A stretch of DNA of 64,000 nucleotides. Origin: Barnesiella sp. An22. GTDB taxonomy: Bacteria > Bacteroidota > Bacteroidia > Bacteroidales > Barnesiellaceae. How positions within the stretch are numbered: position 1 is the stretch's first letter; the number at the start of each line of letters is the position of its first letter. This document shows positions 40,950-57,543 of the stretch, piece after piece. The DNA lies in contig NZ_NFJR01000002.1 in the NCBI RefSeq assembly GCF_002159975.1, positions 124,001-188,000 of the forward strand, read 5' to 3'. The notes beneath the pieces are model-generated. The model was not told the origin of the DNA. It saw nothing but the letters and a program-made list of their open reading frames with translations, and did not search any database. A program made the translations under genes and the position numbers.

Positions 40950-43721
40950 TTATATCACAATATTGACAATCTTATTGGGCACCACGATAATCTTCTTGGG
41001 GGTCTTACCCTCGAGCCATCGGGCCGACGATTCGTGGTTGAGAACAATCTGCTCTATCTCTTCGCGCGGTGTACCGGACTTTATCTCGAGGCTGAAACGG
41101 GCCTTGCCGTTGAACGAGACGGCATACGTCACCACATCTTCCTTCAGATACTCTTCGTTCCACACGGGCCACTCGGCATCGCATACCGTCTGGTCGTGAC
41201 CCAGCTCGTGCCACAACTCTTCGCTGATGTGCGGGGCAAAAGGTGCCAACAGAATAATCACCTTTTCGAGCATCTGCTTATTGCGCGATTTCAGCGCCGT
41301 CAGTTCGTTTACACAAATCATAAAGGCACTGATCGAGGTGTTGTACGAGAAGTTCTCCACGTCCCACGAAATCTTCTTGATGAGCTTGTGTACCGATTTC
41401 AACTCCTCTTTCGTAGGCTCGGCATCCTGCACGGCCAGCTTGTCGCCCTGATAGAAAAGGTTCCACAGTTTTTTCAAGAAGCGGTGTACACCGTCTATGC
41501 CGTTGGTATCCCACGGCTTGCTCTGCTCGATGGGGCCCAGGAACATTTCGTACAGACGCAACGTATCGGCTCCATATTTCTCGACAATATCGTCGGGATT
41601 GACGACGTTGAACATCGACTTAGACATCTTCTCTACGGCCCAACCGCAGATGTAGCGGCCGTCGTCTTCCAAGATAAACTCGGCCGTAGCAAACTCGGGA
41701 CGCCATTTCTTGAATGCCTCTATGTCGAGTACATCGTTGCTCACGATGTTTACATCGACGTGAATGGGCGTCGTGTCGTACTCCTTGCGTTTGTTGAGCG
41801 TAACGAACGTATTGGTGTCCTTTATACGGTATACAAAGTTGGAACGCCCCTGTATCATACCCTGGTTGATAAGTTTCTTGAAAGGCTCATCCTCGCAAAT
41901 CATCCCTTTGTCGAACAGGAACTTGTTCCAGAAACGGCTGTAAATAAGGTGACCCGTAGCGTGCTCGGTACCACCTATGTAGAGGTCGACATTGCGCCAA
42001 TACTCGTTATTCTCTTTCGATACCAGCGCCCTGTCGTTGTGGGGGTCCATATAGCGCAGATAGTAGGCCGACGAGCCGGCAAAACCGGGCATCGTGCACA
42101 ACTCCAGCGGATAGTGGTCTTCGGTCTCCCAGTTCTTGGCTCGACCCAGCGGGGGTTCACCCGTCTCGGTAGGCAGGAACTTATCCACCTCGGGGAGTTT
42201 CAACGGCAGCTTGCTCTCGTCGAGCATATAGGGCATGCCCTCCTTGTAATATACCGGGAAGGGTTCACCCCAGTAACGCTGGCGGCTGAAGATGGCATCG
42301 CGTAAACGGTAGTTCACCTTTACACGGCCTATGCCTTTCTCTTTAATGAATTTCTTGGTAGCGGCAATGGCATCCTTTACCTCCATGCCGTTCAGGTCGA
42401 GACCGTTGCCACACGAGTTTATCATCTTGCCCTCCTTGGCATCGAAACTCTCTTCCGACACGTCGCACCCCTCGATCAAGGGAATGATAGGCAGGTCGAA
42501 ATGCTTGGCAAAGGCGTAGTCGCGGCTATCGTGAGCCGGTACCGCCATGATGGCACCCGTACCGTAACCGGCCAATACATAGTCGCTCACGTAGATAGGA
42601 ATATGTTTGTTGTTCAACGGGTTGATGGCATAGGCACCCGTAAACACACCCGTCACGCTGCGGTCCATCAGACGCTCGCGTTCGGTGCGGTGTTTGATGC
42701 TCTCGAGGTATTTGTTGACAGCCTCTTTCTGCTCGGGAGTTACCACCTGTTGCACATACTCGCTTTCGGGAGCCAGTACCATGAAGGTAACCCCGAATAC
42801 CGTATCGGCACGCGTCGTGAAGATGGTAAACTCTACGTCCGAGTCTACTACCTTGAACTGCATCTCGGCACCCTCCGAACGGCCTATCCAGTTCTTCTGC
42901 GTCTCTTTCAGCGAGTCGGTCCAGTCGAGTTTGTCGAGTCCGTCGAGCAGACGTTGGGCATAAGCCGATACCCGGAGGCACCATTGGCGCATCACCTTCT
43001 GCTCTACGGGATAGCCACCCCGTATCGATACTCCTTCGCTCACCTCGTCGTTGGCCAGCACCGTACCCAGTTTCGGACACCAGTTTACCATCGTGTCGCC
43101 CAGGTAAGCAATGCGGTAGTTCATCAGCGTCTCCTGCTGCTCCTTCTCGCTCTTGGCTTTCCACTCGTCGGCTGTGAACGAAAGCTCTTCGCTGCAGGCC
43201 GCATTCAACCCTTCGGTACCTTTCGTCTCGAAATGTTTTACCAGCTCTTCAATCGAACGGGCCTGTTGCCTGTCGTTGTCGTAGTAGCTGTTGAACATCT
43301 GTATGAAGGCCCACTGGGTCCACTTGTAATACTCGGGATCGCAGGTGCGAATCTCGCGGCTCCAGTCGTAGCAGAAACCAATCTTGTCCAACTGCTCACG
43401 ATAGCGATTTATATTCTTCTCGGTCGTAATGGCCGGATGTTGTCCGGTCTGTATCGCATACTGTTCGGCCGGAAGTCCATAAGCATCGTAACCCATGGGG
43501 TGGAGCACGTTGAAACCTTTCAGCCGTTTGTAACGGGAATAGATGTCAGAAGCAATATATCCCAGCGGGTGACCTACGTGCAGACCTGCACCCGAAGGAT
43601 AGGGGAACATGTCCAATACGTAGTATTTGGGTTTCTCCTTGTTTTCGGTAACCTGGTAGATGTGATGCTCTTTCCAGTACTTCTGCCACTTTTTCTCTAT
43701 TTCTTTGAAATTGTATTCCAT
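40950..43721 (-). CDS. leuS: Leucyl-tRNA synthetase
   Basis: 923 residues from [16 protein letters not shown]; a TTG three codons earlier (43730) is rejected. Class I catalytic motifs: HVGH in [13 protein letters not shown], and KMSKS in [15 protein letters not shown]. The editing domain (CP1) has TRADTVFG and [16 protein letters not shown]-terminal anticodon-binding and zinc regions are complete. Downstream of nadA (45 bp gap) and upstream of yitT. Confidence 0.97.
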
Positions 43722-43766
43722 GATGAACAATATGTGATAGGTGATATTTTTTTAGTTACTCTTCTC

Positions 43767-44759
43767 TTAAATTCCCAGTGAAGCCGATATGTCGAGCATA
43801 CGGCGTATGGGTTTGATGGCCTCCCGGGCTATGGCTTCGTCGACCGTGATTTCGGGCAACTCGTACTTGAGGGTATTGTACAGTTTCTTCATCGTGTTCA
43901 ACCGCATGAAGTTGCACTCGCTGCAGCCGCAGGTACTGGCATCGTCGGGAGGGGCCGGAATGAACTCCTTGCCGGGGTTGCTCTTCTTCATCTCGTGCAG
44001 GATACCCGACTCGGTAGCTACGATAAAGCGTTTGCAGTCCGACTGGGTAGCAAAGCGCAACAAGGCGGCCGTCGAACCCACCTTGTCGGCCACAAGCAGA
44101 ATGTCGCGTTTGCATTCGGGGTGGGCCAGCAGCAGGGCATCGGGATACTCCTTTTTCAACGCTACGATTTTCTCGAGCGAGAATTGCGAGTGCACGTGGC
44201 AGGCACCGTCCCACAGCAACATGTTCCGACCCGTGACGCTGTTGATATAGTTTCCCAGATTTTTGTCGGGACCGAAGATAATCTTCTCGTCGGCCGGGAA
44301 GCTCTCTACTATCTGTTTGGCGTTCGACGAAGTCACCACCACGTCGGTGTGTGCCTTTACGGCGGCCGAGGTGTTCACATACGAAATCACCTTGTAGCCG
44401 GGATGCTGTTTTACAAACTCGGCAAAGGCATCGGCCGGGCAACTGTCGGCCAGCGAACAACCGGCATTCAGGTCGGGGATGAGCACCTTTTTGTCGGGGC
44501 AGAGTATCTTGGCTGTCTCGCCCATGAAGTGCACGCCGCAAAGCACCAGTATCGACGCATCGGTCTTGGCGGCCCATTGGGCCAGCGCCAGCGAGTCGCC
44601 CACATAGTCGGCAATATCCTGTATATCGCCCGACTGGTAGTAGTGAGCCAGCACGACGGCATTCTTCTCACGCTTCATTTTCTCGATCTCGGCTACCATA
44701 TCCACGCCTTCGGGAACAGGCATATCCACATAACCTTTGGAGATATTTACATCGAACAT
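43767..44759 (-). CDS. nadA: Quinolinate synthase
   Basis: [4Fe-4S] enzyme that condenses iminoaspartate with dihydroxyacetone phosphate to quinolinate, completing the route begun by NadB. 330 residues. Conserved blocks LAHYYQSGDIQDIADYVGDSL, split at AHYYQSGDIQ and DYVGDSL, with FMGETAKIL and DLNAGCSLADSCP; cysteines of the cluster lie in VLCGVHF, HPECKRDIL and STCGCSECNFM. It is the last gene left of the DnaA-box-rich gap and is transcribed leftward, away from it, ahead of leuS. Confidence 0.96.
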   Translation of the reverse strand: MFDVNISKGYVDMPVPEGVDMVAEIEKMKREKNAVVLAHYYQSGDIQDIADYVGDSLALAQWAAKTDASILVLCGVHFMGETAKILCPDKKVLIPDLNAGCSLADSCPADAFAEFVKQHPGYKVISYVNTSAAVKAHTDVVVTSSNAKQIVESFPADEKIIFGPDKNLGNYINSVTGRNMLLWDGACHVHSQFSLEKIVALKKEYPDALLLAHPECKRDILLVADKVGSTAALLRFATQSDCKRFIVATESGILHEMKKSNPGKEFIPAPPDDASTCGCSECNFMRLNTMKKLYNTLKYELPEITVDEAIAREAIKPIRRMLDISASLGI

Positions 44760-45262
44760 ATATATTATTCCTTTTTTATTTTTTAATTTAAAATTCTTAT
44801 TGTTGATGATAATAGGCTGTTGACAGTAAGGATAACTTCTTGTTAAAATAGTTGCTTTTTATCTTATCAACCTTCGGGGTTTACGTTATCCGTGTCTTGT
44901 CAACGTCATTATCCTGTTATAATGAGCCTATTAAATTCCTTATCAACGCCCTGTTTACAAACTGCAAAGTTAATAACTTTATTCTATTTGCATGATTGAT
45001 AAATAGATATTTTGAGGTGGATATTTCAACTCACAACTGGTGCATATATTATTTGCATTTTTACGGGGAGGTGTCGTATAGAGGTAATTTTCTGATTTCA
45101 AAATTTTGTACCGCTTTTTATGTCCCCATTTTATAACGCCTTATCCACACTTGTACACACGGTTATTAACGACGCTGTTTACAGGGTAGGGGACGGATGA
45201 AAGAAATTGTCTTTGTCGGGTGTATGTATTATCTTTGTCGACACTTGTAAAGAGAGTCCTTT
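44760..45262. other. Candidate oriC, DnaA-box cluster A
   Basis: About 500 bp noncoding. DnaA-like boxes on plus: TTATCAACC 44864-44872, TTATCCGTG 44886-44894, TTATCCTGT 44909-44917, TTATCAACG 44940-44948, perfect TTATCCACA 45141-45149 and TTATTAACG 45163-45171. The first three are 22-23 bp apart, about two helical turns. AT-rich DNA at 44761-44800 could unwind. GC skew changes sign about here. No gene is seen, only the trmH promoter at the right edge. Confidence 0.6.
45207..45237 (+). promoter_or_regulatory. Promoter of trmH
   Basis: TTG at 45207-45209, 20 bp spacer, TATCTTTG at 45230-45237, then 25 bp to the trmH ATG. Confidence 0.65.
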
Positions 45263-45793
45263 ATGAAGAAAAAGAGTATTTTCGACCTGCACAGGGTTTC
45301 GCAAGAGGAGTTTAAACATCTCGAAAAGATACCGTTAGTGGTTGTGTTGGACAATGTGCGCAGTCTCAACAACATCGGATCGGTATTCCGTACGGCCGAT
45401 GCCTTCAAGGTAGCCTGCATCTACCTTTGCGGAATCACCGCTACACCGCCGCACACCGACATACACAAGACGGCACTGGGGGCCGAGGATAGTGTAGACT
45501 GGATTTATGAGCAAGATACCTGCACGGTTGTTGATAAGTTGTTGGCGGCCGGTTACGAGGTCTATGCCATCGAACAGGTGGAGGGGAGTATAAGCCTCAC
45601 CGACATCGAGTTGGACAAGAACAAACGATATGCCGTAGTGTTGGGCAACGAAGTAAAGGGGGTACAGCAGTCGGTTGTCGACAAGTGTACGGGCAGTATA
45701 GAGATACCGCAATTTGGTACCAAACATTCGTTGAACGTGTCGGTTACGGCCGGTCTGGTCATTTGGGATTTCTTCAAACAACTGGGGTTATAG
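45263..45793 (+). CDS. TrmH/SpoU-family RNA 2'-O-methyltransferase
   Basis: 176-residue SPOUT-fold enzyme that 2'-O-methylates tRNA or rRNA; target unknown. Motif 1 NVRSLNNIGSVFRTADAF (about 31-48), motif 2 VVLGNEVKGV and motif 3 SLNVSVTAGLVIWDF, all intact. No N-terminal substrate-binding domain. It lies between the two DnaA-box clusters, overlapping the DUF4294 gene tail to tail by 6 bp. Confidence 0.92.
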   Translation: MKKKSIFDLHRVSQEEFKHLEKIPLVVVLDNVRSLNNIGSVFRTADAFKVACIYLCGITATPPHTDIHKTALGAEDSVDWIYEQDTCTVVDKLLAAGYEVYAIEQVEGSISLTDIELDKNKRYAVVLGNEVKGVQQSVVDKCTGSIEIPQFGTKHSLNVSVTAGLVIWDFFKQLGL

Positions 45794-46390
45794 CGAACCC
45801 TGTTCTACCAGAATGCAGATGCGCTCGATGGTCTTGTCTTTACCTTCGGGTTGCCAGTCGGTCTTGAGCGAGGCGCCGAACATCTTGCCGAAAAATTGCC
45901 AGAAGTTGGCTCTGAAGCTCCCCAGAAAAGCCTTTATCAACTCGTAGGACGATTGGTTGCACTCTCTGTTTATCAGCTTGATAAGCATCTTACCCTGCGA
46001 CAGGGTAAACTTTTTCAACACCGGTTTATATTGTTGGAAAACCTCTTTCTCCATACGTTTCATGTGCTGCTCGCGTGCCTCGTCATCGGGGAGAGTCTCC
46101 ATATATTCATAGGTCTCTATGAAGATATTGTAGATGAGTTTGGCATAGGGTAGGGTCTTTTTCACATCGCGTACGGTTTTCCAGTAAAATTTCTCCTCCT
46201 TTTTGTTTTTGAATTTTTCGGGGGGAAATACATAGAAGGTGCGTAGTCCTATCAACGCTACCGTATCGTTGTCGATAACTACCCGATAAAAATGTTTATA
46301 AGCCGGATGTTCCTCCTGAAAGATCTGTGCCTGAAGGCTCGGAACCATCAGAAAGAGAAAAAGAAACAATATGGACCATCCTCTTTTCAT
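45788..46390 (-). CDS. DUF4294 family secreted protein
   Basis: About 200 residues from MKRGWSILFLFLFLMVPSLQ, a signal peptide; an in-frame TTG three codons earlier is rejected. The mature part has YRVVIDNDTVALIGLRTFYVF, split as VVIDNDTVALIGL, then a helical region rich in charged residues and INRECNQSSYELIKAF. These are features of DUF4294 of Bacteroidetes; function unknown. Overlaps trmH at its 3' end; both sit between the DnaA-box clusters. Confidence 0.85.
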   Translation of the reverse strand: MKRGWSILFLFLFLMVPSLQAQIFQEEHPAYKHFYRVVIDNDTVALIGLRTFYVFPPEKFKNKKEEKFYWKTVRDVKKTLPYAKLIYNIFIETYEYMETLPDDEAREQHMKRMEKEVFQQYKPVLKKFTLSQGKMLIKLINRECNQSSYELIKAFLGSFRANFWQFFGKMFGASLKTDWQPEGKDKTIERICILVEQGSL

Positions 46391-46827
46391 CGGGTACAAA
46401 TGTAAATCTTTCGATTTTTCGATGACTATTTTTTTGCAATAATTATAATATTAACCGGTGTTGATAGTGTATGTGTACAGATTGTCCATATCTTGTGGAT
46501 ATGATTGTTTATTTATGGTTAATAGTTTAATAAATAGAATTTTACAAATTGTTTATAACGTGAGTATTTTTTGTATTTCGGTGGTTGAAAACCCGTGGAT
46601 AAGCTGTTGGTATGGCTGTTTTCAGACTTTTGTCTCCCGATTGTTTTTTCATAAGTTGATAAATCGTTGACATCCTTGTTTATTATTCTTATATATAATT
46701 GACATATAAATAGATATAGTTTATTCACAACTTGTGTATAACTTGAAAAGGAGTATATAGATTTTACAAAAATCTATGGTTGGATAGTAGATAAATTCTA
46801 CCTTTGTAAAGTAAAAAGAGTATTGCT
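46391..46827. other. Candidate oriC, DnaA-box cluster B
   Basis: About 440 bp noncoding and very AT-rich. Boxes: TGTGGATAT 46494-46502 (minus, TATCCACA core), CGTGGATAA 46594-46602 (minus, one mismatch from TTATCCACA), AGTTGATAA 46654-46662 (minus), TTATTCACA 46721-46729 (plus) and TGTGTATAA 46733-46741 (minus, facing it). The last two are an inverted pair. An AT-rich tract at 46681-46720 could be an unwinding element. The radical SAM promoter (TACCTTTG 46799-46806) is at the right edge. Confidence 0.6.
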
Positions 46828-47607
46828 ATGCAGACAGTGTTATTTCATGAAATCATTTACGGACCCGTGCACAGCCGTCGTCTGGGCATATCGCTGGGTG
46901 TGAATCTGTTGCCGACCGATGGCAAGTTGTGCTCGTTCGACTGTGTCTATTGTGAGTGCGGCTACAATGCCCAGGGAGTGGGCAAGAGCGGGTTACCCTC
47001 GGCCGACCAGGTAGAAGAGGTGTTGAAAACCCGTTTACAAGCCATGCACGAGGCAGGCGAAAAACTCGATGTCATTACCTTTGCCGGCAATGGCGAGCCT
47101 ACGTTGCACCCGCAGTTCGAAAAGATTATAGATACTACGCTCTATTTGCGCGATCACTACTATCCCGAGGCCAAGATAAGCGTGCTCTCCAATGCGACCC
47201 GCATTCACACCGAATCGGTATTCAGAGCCTTGAACCGGGTAGACAACAACATACTCAAACTCGATTCGCTCCGTCCCGAGACGGTGGCCCTGATCGACAA
47301 TCCCAACGATCCCCACTTCGACGTGAACCGTGTGGTATGCGACTTGAAACGCTTTTCGGGCAATGTAATCGTGCAGACCATGTTCCTGCGTGGCTGGCAC
47401 AACGGACAGCGCATCGACAATACCGTAGAAGAGGAGCTCTCGCCGTGGTTGGAGGCGCTGCAGTACATTTCGCCTCGTTCGGTGATGATTTATACCATCG
47501 ACCGTAAAACCCCCGAGGAATCGCTCGAAAAGGTCTCTCGCGAGGAGTTGGAGCAGATAGCCGCCCGGGTGAGGGAGCTGGGGCTGGAGGTTTCGGTATC
47601 GGCCTGA
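46828..47607 (+). CDS. Radical SAM protein
   Basis: 259 residues. The [4Fe-4S] cluster motif CSFDCVYCECG (Cys35, Cys39, Cys42) is the CxxxCxxC form, followed by FAGNGEPTLHPQFEKI, which contacts SAM, and LSNATRIHTESV. N-terminus GPVHSRRLGISLGVNLLP is shared with a family of standalone radical SAM proteins of unknown substrate. Preceded by a -7 box TACCTTTG (46799-46806). Codirectional with the predicted rightward fork. Confidence 0.9.
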   Translation: MQTVLFHEIIYGPVHSRRLGISLGVNLLPTDGKLCSFDCVYCECGYNAQGVGKSGLPSADQVEEVLKTRLQAMHEAGEKLDVITFAGNGEPTLHPQFEKIIDTTLYLRDHYYPEAKISVLSNATRIHTESVFRALNRVDNNILKLDSLRPETVALIDNPNDPHFDVNRVVCDLKRFSGNVIVQTMFLRGWHNGQRIDNTVEEELSPWLEALQYISPRSVMIYTIDRKTPEESLEKVSREELEQIAARVRELGLEVSVSA

Positions 47608-47645
47608 TGGCTGTTCACATGATATGAACATAGGCTGTCGATAAT

Positions 47646-47688
47646 ACAAGAAAACCCGATGCAGTTTATCTGCATCGGGTTTTCTTGT
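47646..47688. terminator. Bidirectional terminator between radical SAM and LRR genes
   Basis: A 19 bp perfect stem with ACAAGAAAACCCGATGCAG (47646-47664) and its complement (47670-47688) around TTTAT. The A- and T-tracts built into the arms serve both directions; the two genes converge here. Confidence 0.9.
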
Positions 47689-47707
47689 GAGGTAAAAGGG
47701 TGATGTG

Positions 47708-50656
47708 TTATTTCACAATTACCTTTTTACTTTGTGTCGAAAGAGTGTTATGAACTTTTACTATGTAGATACCTTGGTTAAGGTTTAGGTCTCTTTCGTT
47801 GATTACCCGGCCTTCCCATACGAGGCTGCCGCTTGTGGTATATACCTGTACGGCGGCATCGTCGGCTACGATTCGGAGTATACCGGGCAGGCTCCATACT
47901 TTAACCCCTGCAGTCTCGGTTTCGTCGATAGCCGATTCGTCGGCAAATTCGGCCGTTACTACCGAAGCCATCTTCACGACAAACGACGAACCGCTTACGC
48001 TCACGCCGTTTACCTTCACGTTTCTCAGCAAGTAACCTTCGTCGGGGAGAGCCGTGATGGTAACCGTGCTGTTCTTGGCCACCTTGTCGCCCGAGTTTAC
48101 TACCTCGTTATTCTCGTTGCGCAGTTCCAGTGAACCGTTCTCCGAGGGTTCGATGGTGATGTAGGCCTCGTTGCAGCCGCTGCCGTCGCCATCGATAGAG
48201 ACTTTCCAACCCTTCTTCGTAGCGATGGAGGTTTCGCTGGTTTCGGCTTCGTTTTCATTGCTGATACCGGCGATAAAGAGGTTGACGTTGGTAGGAGTCG
48301 TGGCACAAACGGGCAGGTGATAGAACAGGTCGTTGAGCTCGCAAGCCGTCATACCGTTGCCCGAGCACTCGATGTAGTTCAGTTTCGTGTTGTTCGACAG
48401 GTCGATGGGTTCGAGTTGGTTGCCGTCGCAGAAGAGGCGTTCGAGCTCGGTATTTTTCGACAAGTCGAGGGTCGTAAGCTGGTTGTTCGAGCAGGTGAGT
48501 CGCACCAGTTGCGTGTTGTGGGTTACGTCGAGCGAAGTCAGGCCCATGTTGCTGCATTGCAGTTCCTGCAGGTTGGAGAGCATGCTCACGTCGATAGAGC
48601 TCAGTTGCGAGTTGTTCTGTACGTCAAGCAACATCAGTTTGGTGTTGTTGGTCAGAGTCACGCTCGAGAGCGAGTTGTTGCGTATCACAGCCTCTTCGAG
48701 TTCGGTATTGTTCGACAAGTCGATGGATGTCAATTCGCAGTTGTAGCAGGTAAGCGAGAAGAGTTTCGTATTCTTCGACAGGTCGAGGGTACCTATTTCG
48801 TTGTAAGAGCAGTCGAGTTTGCCCAATTCGGGGTTCTTCGACAGGTCGAGCGAGGTAATACCCGTCCAATAGCAGTCGAGGGTAGCCAGCGTAGCGTTGT
48901 GGGTTACGTCGAGCGAAATCAGGTTGTTTTCGGAGCAATCGAAATAGTCGATCAAGCCGCTGATACGGATAGTCGTACCCTTGGAGTTGCCGTCGAGTCT
49001 CACAATTGATTCGTTGTCGATGGTCATGGTCTCGATTTCGCCGTTGCCCCAGTCGATTTCAACTTCGGTTTCAGGGTCAATTCCGCTTATTCCGAACGAG
49101 AAAGGCACGTTGTTCTCTACCTCCATGGCAATGTAGTTGTTGGCAGCGATGGGGATGAATACGGCCGATACGGTTACATTCTCCGAAGCAGCAAAAATAT
49201 TGCTGTTGATGCGTTGGCCGTTCACCTCGTAGTAGCGCACCTGATAACCTTCGGCAGGCGAGGCGGTGATGTAGGTAGGTACACCCGATTCGAGCTGGTT
49301 GTTTTCGACTGCGTGCAGTTCGTGTGTTACCAGGTCGGGTTGCGAGAGGGTGAAGGTTCCCAATTCGGAGGGTACGATTGTAGCCGTCACCGTGCCGCAG
49401 GTAGCACTGCCGTCGCCTGTAACGTCGACTGTCCATTTCGATTCGGTAGCGATGTAGGTGTCGCTGGTCTCGGCATTGCTGCCTTCGAGCAGCAGGTTGG
49501 GGTAGGGGCTTGCACTCTCCAGACCCGAGAGAGTCTGATACATGTAGTTGAGGCTGCAGGGAGTCATACCCTTGTTGTTGCGAATATCGATGGTATTGAT
49601 GCCCTGGTTATAGTAAAAGTCAAGGTAGGTAAAGAGGTTGTTGGGGCCCCAGAATCTTGTCAGGTGAGTGTTTTGGCTCAAGTCTATTTCGGTAAGCAGA
49701 TTGTCGCCACACTTGAGCGAAAGCAGGTTGGACATGTTCGACACGTTCAGTTTGGTCAGTTGGTTGCCATCGCACGAGAGGTTGGTGATTTTGCTGTTTC
49801 CTGTCAGGTCGAGCCGGGTCAACTGGTTGTTGCTGCATACCAGGTCCATCAGGGCGGTATTGGCAAATACATTCAGTTCGGTCAGATAGTTGTCGTTGCA
49901 GAAGAGCTTTTCGAGTTTGGCATTTTGGGTCAGGTCGATTGACTGGATGTAATTGTAGCGAATGTCGAGCTGTTGCAGTTCGGCCAGTTTGGTAACGTCT
50001 ATCTCTGCCAGAGCATTCCCCTCCAGGTTGATGGAGTAGAGATTGGGGCAACCCGACAGGTCTATGGCGCTCAGGTCGTTGTTGTAGGCCGTAATCGACT
50101 CCAGAGCACTGCCTTCGCTGGGCAATATGATGGTTGTGATGCCACCCCGGTCGTCGGGGTTCGACGCATCGGTTTTATCGTAGCGGCAGTCGAGGTTTCT
50201 CAGTTTTTTGTGTTCCGACAGGTTCAGGAACATCAGTTTGGGGTTGTTGTAGCAGTTAAGGGTTTCGAGGTTGGGGGCACCCGAAATATCGAGATTGGTG
50301 CGTTCTATCTCGTTGCGGTAGCAGTCGAGTGTGGTCAACTCGGGTTCGTTGACAATCGAAAGCGAAGTTACATGTGCTTCGGAGCAGTCGAACGAACGCA
50401 TGGACGAGAGTATCCGTATCGTGTCGCCCACTTGAGTGTCGCTCACGCTGCGGGTCCACATACCGTCTACGGTATACTCTTTTTGAACACCGTCGCCCCA
50501 GTCGACAATCACTTTACCGTCCGAGGCTACCGGCGAGGGGTAGAAGGTAAACTCACTGCCCAGTTCGAGCGAGGTGGTGATTTTTATTTCACCCCATGCC
50601 TCTGAAACTCCCAGAACGAGGCACAACGAAAATAGGAAACTTGTAAATTTTTTCAT
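47708..50656 (-). CDS. Leucine-rich-repeat surface protein with T9SS sorting domain
   Basis: 982 residues. Signal peptide (MKKFTSFLFSLCLVLGVSEA). Two blocks of 21-residue LRRs of the kind LTSLDVTHNTQLVRLTCSNN (about 85-370 and 560-780), each preceded by a DWGDGVQKEYTVDG- or DWGNGEIETMTIDN-like PKD/BACON-type lead and followed by a GDGSATCGT/GDGSGCNEA beta domain. The C-terminal ~75 residues (VKVWSLPGIL... ending GIYIVKVH and STQSKKVIVK) are a type A T9SS sorting domain. Probably surface-anchored, binding host or glycan ligands. Next to a TPR-HTH regulator gene. No -7 box seen in the 185 bp upstream gap. Confidence 0.88.
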   Translation of the reverse strand: MKKFTSFLFSLCLVLGVSEAWGEIKITTSLELGSEFTFYPSPVASDGKVIVDWGDGVQKEYTVDGMWTRSVSDTQVGDTIRILSSMRSFDCSEAHVTSLSIVNEPELTTLDCYRNEIERTNLDISGAPNLETLNCYNNPKLMFLNLSEHKKLRNLDCRYDKTDASNPDDRGGITTIILPSEGSALESITAYNNDLSAIDLSGCPNLYSINLEGNALAEIDVTKLAELQQLDIRYNYIQSIDLTQNAKLEKLFCNDNYLTELNVFANTALMDLVCSNNQLTRLDLTGNSKITNLSCDGNQLTKLNVSNMSNLLSLKCGDNLLTEIDLSQNTHLTRFWGPNNLFTYLDFYYNQGINTIDIRNNKGMTPCSLNYMYQTLSGLESASPYPNLLLEGSNAETSDTYIATESKWTVDVTGDGSATCGTVTATIVPSELGTFTLSQPDLVTHELHAVENNQLESGVPTYITASPAEGYQVRYYEVNGQRINSNIFAASENVTVSAVFIPIAANNYIAMEVENNVPFSFGISGIDPETEVEIDWGNGEIETMTIDNESIVRLDGNSKGTTIRISGLIDYFDCSENNLISLDVTHNATLATLDCYWTGITSLDLSKNPELGKLDCSYNEIGTLDLSKNTKLFSLTCYNCELTSIDLSNNTELEEAVIRNNSLSSVTLTNNTKLMLLDVQNNSQLSSIDVSMLSNLQELQCSNMGLTSLDVTHNTQLVRLTCSNNQLTTLDLSKNTELERLFCDGNQLEPIDLSNNTKLNYIECSGNGMTACELNDLFYHLPVCATTPTNVNLFIAGISNENEAETSETSIATKKGWKVSIDGDGSGCNEAYITIEPSENGSLELRNENNEVVNSGDKVAKNSTVTITALPDEGYLLRNVKVNGVSVSGSSFVVKMASVVTAEFADESAIDETETAGVKVWSLPGILRIVADDAAVQVYTTSGSLVWEGRVINERDLNLNQGIYIVKVHNTLSTQSKKVIVK

Positions 50657-57374: not shown

Positions 57375-57543
57375 GTAGTATATATTTCATTTCTTTTTCT
57401 TTTTAGTTTCTTTTATATTTCAAATAGAAAAATATAGAAATTATAGAGAAACTAAACGAAATCTTTTGTGCATAAATAAAAAAATTATTATACTTGCAAA
57501 AAATAATTATTTCATTTCTTATCACCTTTTAAAAAGTGCTATT

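Follow-up and report, generated by a model that had tools for sequence, protein, structure and literature searches.

A nadA-linked candidate replication origin, with a second DnaA-box cluster, in a Barnesiella-like bacterium

The chromosomal replication origin (oriC) of Bacteroidetes commonly lies far from dnaA, according to an account that cites DoriC (PMC4755523), and some DoriC sites disagree with the true origin (PMC13342612). Skew is employed for origin finding generally (PMC7111523), and one origin predictor is based on dnaA or on lineage-specific indicator genes (PMC10225481). Bipartite origins around dnaA have been described in Helicobacter pylori and other Epsilonproteobacteria (PMC5043019), and a rule for the basal unwinding system (BUS) requires a DnaA box with at most two mismatches no more than 16 bp from at least three 3'-NAN-5' trinucleotides (PMC8287927); all these statements follow the excerpts available of the papers cited. 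Within the accessible parts of the open-licence PMC literature, we found neither a paper that dissects the origin of a Bacteroidales gut bacterium nor a description of a nadA-linked element or of a bipartite origin without dnaA. Here we consider a stretch of 64,000 nucleotides (the window; positions 124001-188000 of contig C12, which has 355,303 bases, in a 3,345,345-base genome of 56 contigs) in which the order across the locus is nadA (-), gap 1, a trmH-family gene (+), a DUF4294 gene (-), gap 2 and a radical SAM gene (+). An earlier note had proposed that the two gaps form an origin, possibly a bipartite one. Judged from its sequence, the stretch is almost certainly the oriC of a Barnesiella-like bacterium (among the best 80 of 89 confirmed relatives of the DUF4294 protein, five of the first six records are named Barnesiella). 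The best explanation of the whole, to which we assign a probability of roughly 0.88, is an oriC that DnaA would open beside nadA, with the second box cluster, in gap 2, aiding.

The position of the origin is indicated most directly by G008, a same-genus relative whose 3,076,856 bases form one contig and were sampled in 40 stretches of 20 kb. Between 310 kb and 1.80 Mb skew was negative in all 20 samples; it was positive in 14 of 15 between 1.86 and 2.96 Mb (the remaining one being -0.004) and in four of four between 1 and 252 kb, with the locus stretch itself at +0.004. In a 1-kb profile the cumulative minimum falls at 1,836-1,837 kb and is nearly flat from 1,834 kb; gap 1 is located there, as placed by the G008 copy of the conserved element described below (L114:8658-8701). 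The antipode (298 kb) lies between one positive and one negative sample, the opposite switch, and G008 thus has the chromosome-wide skew minimum opposite a maximum by which an oriC is recognised. The earlier note had expected a cumulative minimum at this place, and the one-contig relative bears this out; the local change of the plus strand from C-rich to G-rich, which it had also pointed to, is real. Furthermore, the switch recurs at the nadA locus in three genomes of other family groups. In G119, samples were negative in nine of nine cases between 720 kb and 2.46 Mb, positive in eight of eight between 2.49 and 4.56 Mb, and mixed for the three taken near the antipode. On contig C8 of G118 (2.19 of about 2.4 Mb), 11 of 11 samples were negative from 720 kb to 1.84 Mb, three of three beyond were positive, and five of six were positive from 1 to 600 kb. 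On contig C1 of G097 (1.38 of about 4.1 Mb), 12 of 14 samples to the left of nadA were negative and five of six to the right positive.

What is newly recognised here is a conserved candidate unwinding element on the nadA side of gap 1. In it, AT-rich DNA leads into three trinucleotides, a spacer of 4 bases and a pair of abutting DnaA boxes, and in an alignment of 22 gaps the element adjoins nadA as AT-rich DNA, ATGATGATGATAG-like repeats and then two abutting, reversed DnaA-box-like 9-mers. Across 25 aligned loci a T recurs at every third base of the model: positions 8, 14, 17 and 20 never vary, and position 11 hardly does. An nhmmer profile built from 26 loci, with the window's genus held out, was searched against 2.53 Mb of sequence from the window, from its genus and from stretches of other genomes, and matched the window at 44797-44839 with E 1.8e-6. 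Eighteen matches had E <0.1, all upstream of nadA (that in L114 being placed by DUF4294 spacing): eight come from the window's genus and ten from 20 further nadA loci, the other ten of which were weaker or unmatched, and one test locus, L147, contains a training element (L017) and is hence non-independent, the overlap check having covered 40 loci. A sequence-only model of 25 loci, likewise made without the window's genus and with which 150 of 1119 first-look candidates in the window genome were scored, gave a single match there (E 3.7e-7), the runner-up reaching 0.29.

When 121 Bacteroidales genomes were scanned under stricter filters (own genus included, and possibly other training species), 65 matches were found in 56 genomes at E 0.01. 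Thirty-six of these, in 36 genomes, were on the strand opposite to nadA and no more than 300 bp upstream of it, at distances of 33-205 bp; the same place was taken by 13 of the 14 matches with E<=1e-6 and by 25 of the 29 with E<=1e-4. Such proximity could mean that the element is a leader or promoter of nadA, serving for example NAD-dependent nadA control, and is no part of an origin. We hold this to be highly unlikely, given that nine matches with E <1e-3 lie away from nadA (the weaker five in G020, G036, G043, G060 and G106) and that the elements of the four best (G022, G033, G072 and G086) all sit, in the same orientation, on a local negative-to-positive skew switch (10 kb each), a small one in G033 (-0.043 to +0.029) and G072 (-0.033 to +0.016). 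The element is also composed of box-like repeats; Rfam recognised no known RNA structure in the gaps, the element included (the sole match with E <1 in 43000-49000 lies elsewhere and far under the cut-off); and a possible nadA promoter, which we take to be the reversed TAACTTTG at 44965-44972, stands about 120 bp farther from the gene. As part of an origin, the gap-1 element is probably a DNA-unwinding element, to judge by its layout and conservation. At two of the off-nadA copies, L249 (G022) and L251 (G033), a ribose-5-phosphate isomerase B-like open reading frame (ORF) was seen within about 0.5 kb when translations were read, a hint of a second recurrent origin neighbour; L251 has a RuvB-like ORF on the element's other side.

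DnaA-like 9-mers were the core of the earlier proposal, and sequence reading and box scans found all of them in place: an exact TTATCCACA at 45141-45149, an inverted pair at 46721-46729 and 46733-46741, and three boxes at 44864, 44886 and 44909, spaced 22 and 23 bp apart and with two, three and three differences from TTATCCACA. That the gaps flank just a trmH-family gene and DUF4294 agrees with the domain matches (PF00588, PF14127). The exact box alone was rejected as evidence, the genome having 39 copies of it and 38 of a reversed control pattern. Across the whole window 21 boxes have at most one mismatch, where shuffles average 11.0 (0 of 100 shuffles reach 21), and gap 2 has four, a number that none of 1000 dinucleotide shuffles reached. 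A looser class, TTATN[AC]ACN, which was picked after inspection of 33 homologous gaps, this locus among them, occurs five times in each gap (0 of 1000 shuffles for each), and all ten intergenic matches of the window fall in these 2 of its 24 gaps. A non-coding cluster of DnaA boxes above chance, as an oriC should have, is thus present, for gap 1 alone only by the looser class. In the 33 homologous gaps, which lie between divergent trmH and nadA and include the window's (L023 and L024 being apparent duplicates), boxes with at most one mismatch number 85 where mononucleotide shuffles predict 4.25; for 20 further loci, the 550-base stretches upstream of nadA yielded 36 in total, with 3.4 expected. 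Easily melted, AT-rich DNA beside the boxes, another mark of an oriC, is found in both gaps, which contain ranks 1, 3 and 4 of the window's 60-bp stretches by weakness of the duplex, two of these in gap 2. Another box cluster, at C12:221.8-223.8 kb, was set aside as chance-like and mainly coding DNA.

Skew might mark an origin only roughly, in which case the true start would lie a few kb off and the boxes would be promoter-linked chance clusters. The window genome is a 56-contig draft whose own profile is that of C12 only (343,509 of 355,303 bases read), and its cumulative minimum, at window 43421, lies 1.3 kb to the left of gap 1 and outside it, as this explanation would have it. We nevertheless give it very little credence, given that gap 1 is top or tied among its locus's intergenic gaps in 28 of the 33 loci by the looser class, that gap 2 is top in three of the five exceptions (L012, L014 and L020, the others being L025 and L036), and that the element is single in its genome and sits on skew switches even off nadA. 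The evidence for an oriC, then, comprises the skew-minimum position in the nearest one-contig relative, DnaA-box-like sites, a very weak duplex and an element conserved across many Bacteroidales.

The earlier note's suggestion of a bipartite origin turns on the role of the second cluster, beyond DUF4294. Two clusters with genes between them are there; the intervening gene, which is dnaA in known bipartite origins, is not dnaA here, and trmH and DUF4294 occupy its place. Gap 2 (which starts at 46400 or about 46391, according to the DUF4294 start codon picked) has the densest boxes in 343.5 kb of C12 (five in 500 bp, next best three), and its counterpart is densest in the 800 kb sampled from G008 (five, next best three). 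In the 450 bases upstream of DUF4294, eight genus loci, the window's included, hold 30 boxes, and nine loci with NadA 75-85% identical hold 17, with 1.36 expected in each set. In a quick tree (midpoint root; Shimodaira-Hasegawa-like approximate likelihood ratio test, SH-aLRT, only) of 37 of 42 rows, a cluster is present in 14 of the 18 rows of the window's half vs 1 of the 19 outside, and the label needs four changes; the threshold of three or more boxes was set after the counts were known, and the rows omitted (L023, which is the same as L024, L029, L080, L083 and L087) are all without gap-2 boxes. A degenerate inverted pair recurs at about the same place in six of eight genus loci; of the two kin loci inspected, L145 and L146, neither has it. 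On the DUF4294 side of gap 2, L010, L012 and L015 (three of the eight genus loci) have a second inverted box-like pair, 273 bp (263 in L015) from the counterpart of the pair at 46721, and the window has a weaker form of it near 46449. In L011 and L014, which are Barnesiella metagenome-assembled genomes, about 5.0 kb, not 0.43 kb, separate DUF4294 from the radical SAM gene, so that the neighbour of gap 2 differs; boxes are still found beside DUF4294.

Gap 1 could instead be the whole origin and the second cluster a DnaA reservoir or regulator, for example a site for timing, or a promoter through which DnaA controls DUF4294 or the radical SAM gene. This is a serious competitor, to which we give somewhat less than an even chance: 25 loci with NadA <75% identical or absent mostly possess boxes by trmH and have few upstream of DUF4294, and neither the nhmmer profile nor the sequence-only model matched the conserved element in gap 2. 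It does less well with the density of the gap-2 boxes, with the weak duplex of gap 2 and the genome's sole close inverted box pair there, and with the persistence of boxes beside DUF4294 in several clade loci where the radical SAM gene is not adjacent. For the second cluster as a working half of the origin we see the odds as balanced. The bipartite part of the earlier proposal has good sequence support, mainly in one clade, where the layout is plausible, and the functional halves remain predicted.

A single dnaA was found, on contig C1, apart from the window's contig, and the encoded protein shows DnaA's N-terminal, ATPase and DNA-binding domains. Adjacency to dnaA is usual for an oriC, not required, and is lacking here. 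A competing, dnaA-linked origin with stronger boxes was not seen, the 3,486 bases around dnaA being free of boxes with at most one mismatch. The idea that dnaA lies near the terminus, suggested by G008, G119 and G118, was rejected, given that in 19 more one-contig genomes dnaA is 0.03 to 0.90 of half a chromosome from nadA; in the five genomes whose origin is apparently at nadA the distance is 0.17 to 0.78. dnaA is simply unlinked to the origin. Domain IV of a DnaA (L001 973-2394) has the recognition motif DHATV, where that of E. coli is DHTTV, and this motif might be connected with the TTATCAACA boxes common in this order.

Several observations weigh against the reading given here. Gap 1 alone is not significant for E. 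coli-type boxes, its one box with at most one mismatch being reached by 171 of 1000 dinucleotide shuffles. Outside the clade, the 25 loci mentioned above have 15 boxes upstream of DUF4294 against 3.7 expected, and 11 against 6.0 in the looser class. nadA is present in 19 of 20 further one-contig Bacteroidales, and only five of these 19 have both switch and element no more than 150 bp from it (G138, G213, G357, G323 and, at E 1.7, G397). G161 has the element at E 0.068 and almost no skew on the left side, G215 has the switch without the element, and G375 and G166 have eight and seven boxes upstream of nadA (L234, L235) and no negative-to-positive switch, possibly following a recent rearrangement; in the other genomes of the 19 neither switch nor element is clear. 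Skew at nadA in G375 runs the opposite way. In G119 and G118 the element is matched weakly at nadA (E 3.4 and 3.9, respectively). With many one-contig genomes lacking switch plus element at nadA, the link between nadA and the element is common, not general. In addition, the published trinucleotide pattern is satisfied only in the register 3'-TAA TAG TAG-5', which is not the commonest type, 3'-GAT-5', in the excerpted text of PMC8287927. Shifted by one base the repeat is 3'-GAT AAT AGT AGT-5', which starts 3'-GAT AAT and then breaks, so that the 3'-GAT-5' type is matched by just the two triplets closest to the boxes; some relatives, e.g., L037, have 3'-GAT AAT AAT GAT-5'. Finally, the support comes from sequence analysis.

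Table 1. Features of the candidate origin region, in window coordinates
Feature	Position	Strand	Evidence or remark
nadA, quinolinate synthase; commonest neighbour of the conserved element	43767..44759	-	PF02445, E 1.2e-121
Gap 1 (nadA-trmH), candidate main origin region, AT-rich, non-coding	44760..45262	.	G008 skew minimum at homologous gap; box excess in 33 homologous gaps
Weakest 60-bp duplex of the 64-kb window, candidate DNA-unwinding stretch adjoining the trinucleotides	44755..44814	.	Nearest-neighbour energy
Conserved candidate origin-unwinding element, full model match	44797..44844	+	C12:168797-168844, E 3.7e-7
Trinucleotides GAT GAT AAT (3'-NAN-5', DnaA-trio-like), 3' side facing the boxes	44805..44813	+	Sequence reading
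Abutting DnaA-box-like 9-mers: 44818-44826 CTGTCAACA (3 mismatches), 44827-44835 TTATCCTTA (2 mismatches)	44818..44835	-	Tandem pair kept across families
Weak box-like array: 44864, 44886, 44898 (TTGTCAACG), 44909, 44940	44864..44948	+	Partly conserved within genus
Exact DnaA box TTATCCACA	45141..45149	+	Same in L010, L011, L012; altered in L013, L014, L015
SpoU/TrmH-family RNA methylase gene, between both clusters	45263..45793	+	PF00588
DUF4294 gene, between both clusters	45788..46399	-	PF14127
Gap 2 (DUF4294-radical SAM), second DnaA-box cluster, candidate second origin half	46400..46827	.	Box count vs shuffles; genus loci
DnaA box ATATCCACA	46494..46502	-	
Third weak-duplex stretch	46498..46557	.	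Rank 4 of 60-bp stretches in window
DnaA box TTATCCACG	46594..46602	-	
Second weak-duplex stretch, overlaps inverted pair	46680..46739	.	Rank 3 of 60-bp stretches in window
Inverted pair of DnaA boxes	46721..46741	.	Sole match of TTATNCACA-N0..10-TGTGNATAA in 3.35-Mb genome
Radical SAM protein gene, beyond gap 2	46828-47607	+	

The features of the locus are collected in Table 1. A megablast search of the plasmid collection did not find the locus there. Elsewhere in the window, 57376-57511 is the second weakest duplex stretch, between thioredoxin-like and secreted-looking genes (as their translations read), and it contains a single DnaA-like 9-mer of at most one mismatch, at 57467.

By analogy with the known DnaA pathway, DnaA made from the distant dnaA gene would bind the abutting pair of boxes (44818-44835) together with the weaker array on their right-hand side; growing across the trinucleotides (44805-44813), a DnaA filament would reach into the AT-rich DNA next to nadA (44755-44814), where melting and helicase loading would follow. 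The cluster beyond DUF4294 would serve as a second DnaA-binding region, probably joined to the first by a loop that spans trmH and DUF4294 (1.1 kb), and may help or time the opening. If true, this would provide a defined 48-bp element for testing, a means of locating the origin in draft genomes and an example of a bipartite origin lacking dnaA. Estimates of growth rate from metagenome read depth rely on a known origin position. More tentatively, and with a little less than even confidence, we suggest that Barnesiella and its kin have a truly bipartite origin without dnaA, in which a Bacteroidales-type element by nadA is joined by a half beyond DUF4294 that the clade gained or kept, the element being a movable marker of Bacteroidales origins with its own trinucleotide flavour, present also where nadA is not its neighbour.

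Among known systems, the predicted oriC of Prevotella intermedia chromosome 1 resembles the present one in having a skew transition, several DnaA boxes and a distant dnaA; unlike here, the available part of that account mentions neither a conserved unwinding element nor a link to nadA nor a second cluster (PMC4755523). The BUS of Bacillus subtilis and others, as the excerpted description has it, shares with the gap-1 element its tandem boxes, short spacer, three NAN trinucleotides and AT-rich DNA beyond (PMC8287927). The better box, 44827-44835, with two mismatches, lies 13 bp from the repeat at 44805-44813 and satisfies the BUS rule, which is lax in AT-rich DNA, and the weight therefore rests on conservation; the same 13 bases compare with a BUS peak of 10-13 (PMC8287927). 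The element here differs from the BUS in that its boxes are weak when scored by the E. coli consensus. As in the bipartite oriC of Helicobacter pylori, coding DNA separates two DnaA-box clusters; in the part of the H. pylori account available the clusters flank dnaA (PMC5043019), whereas here they flank trmH and DUF4294, with dnaA far away.

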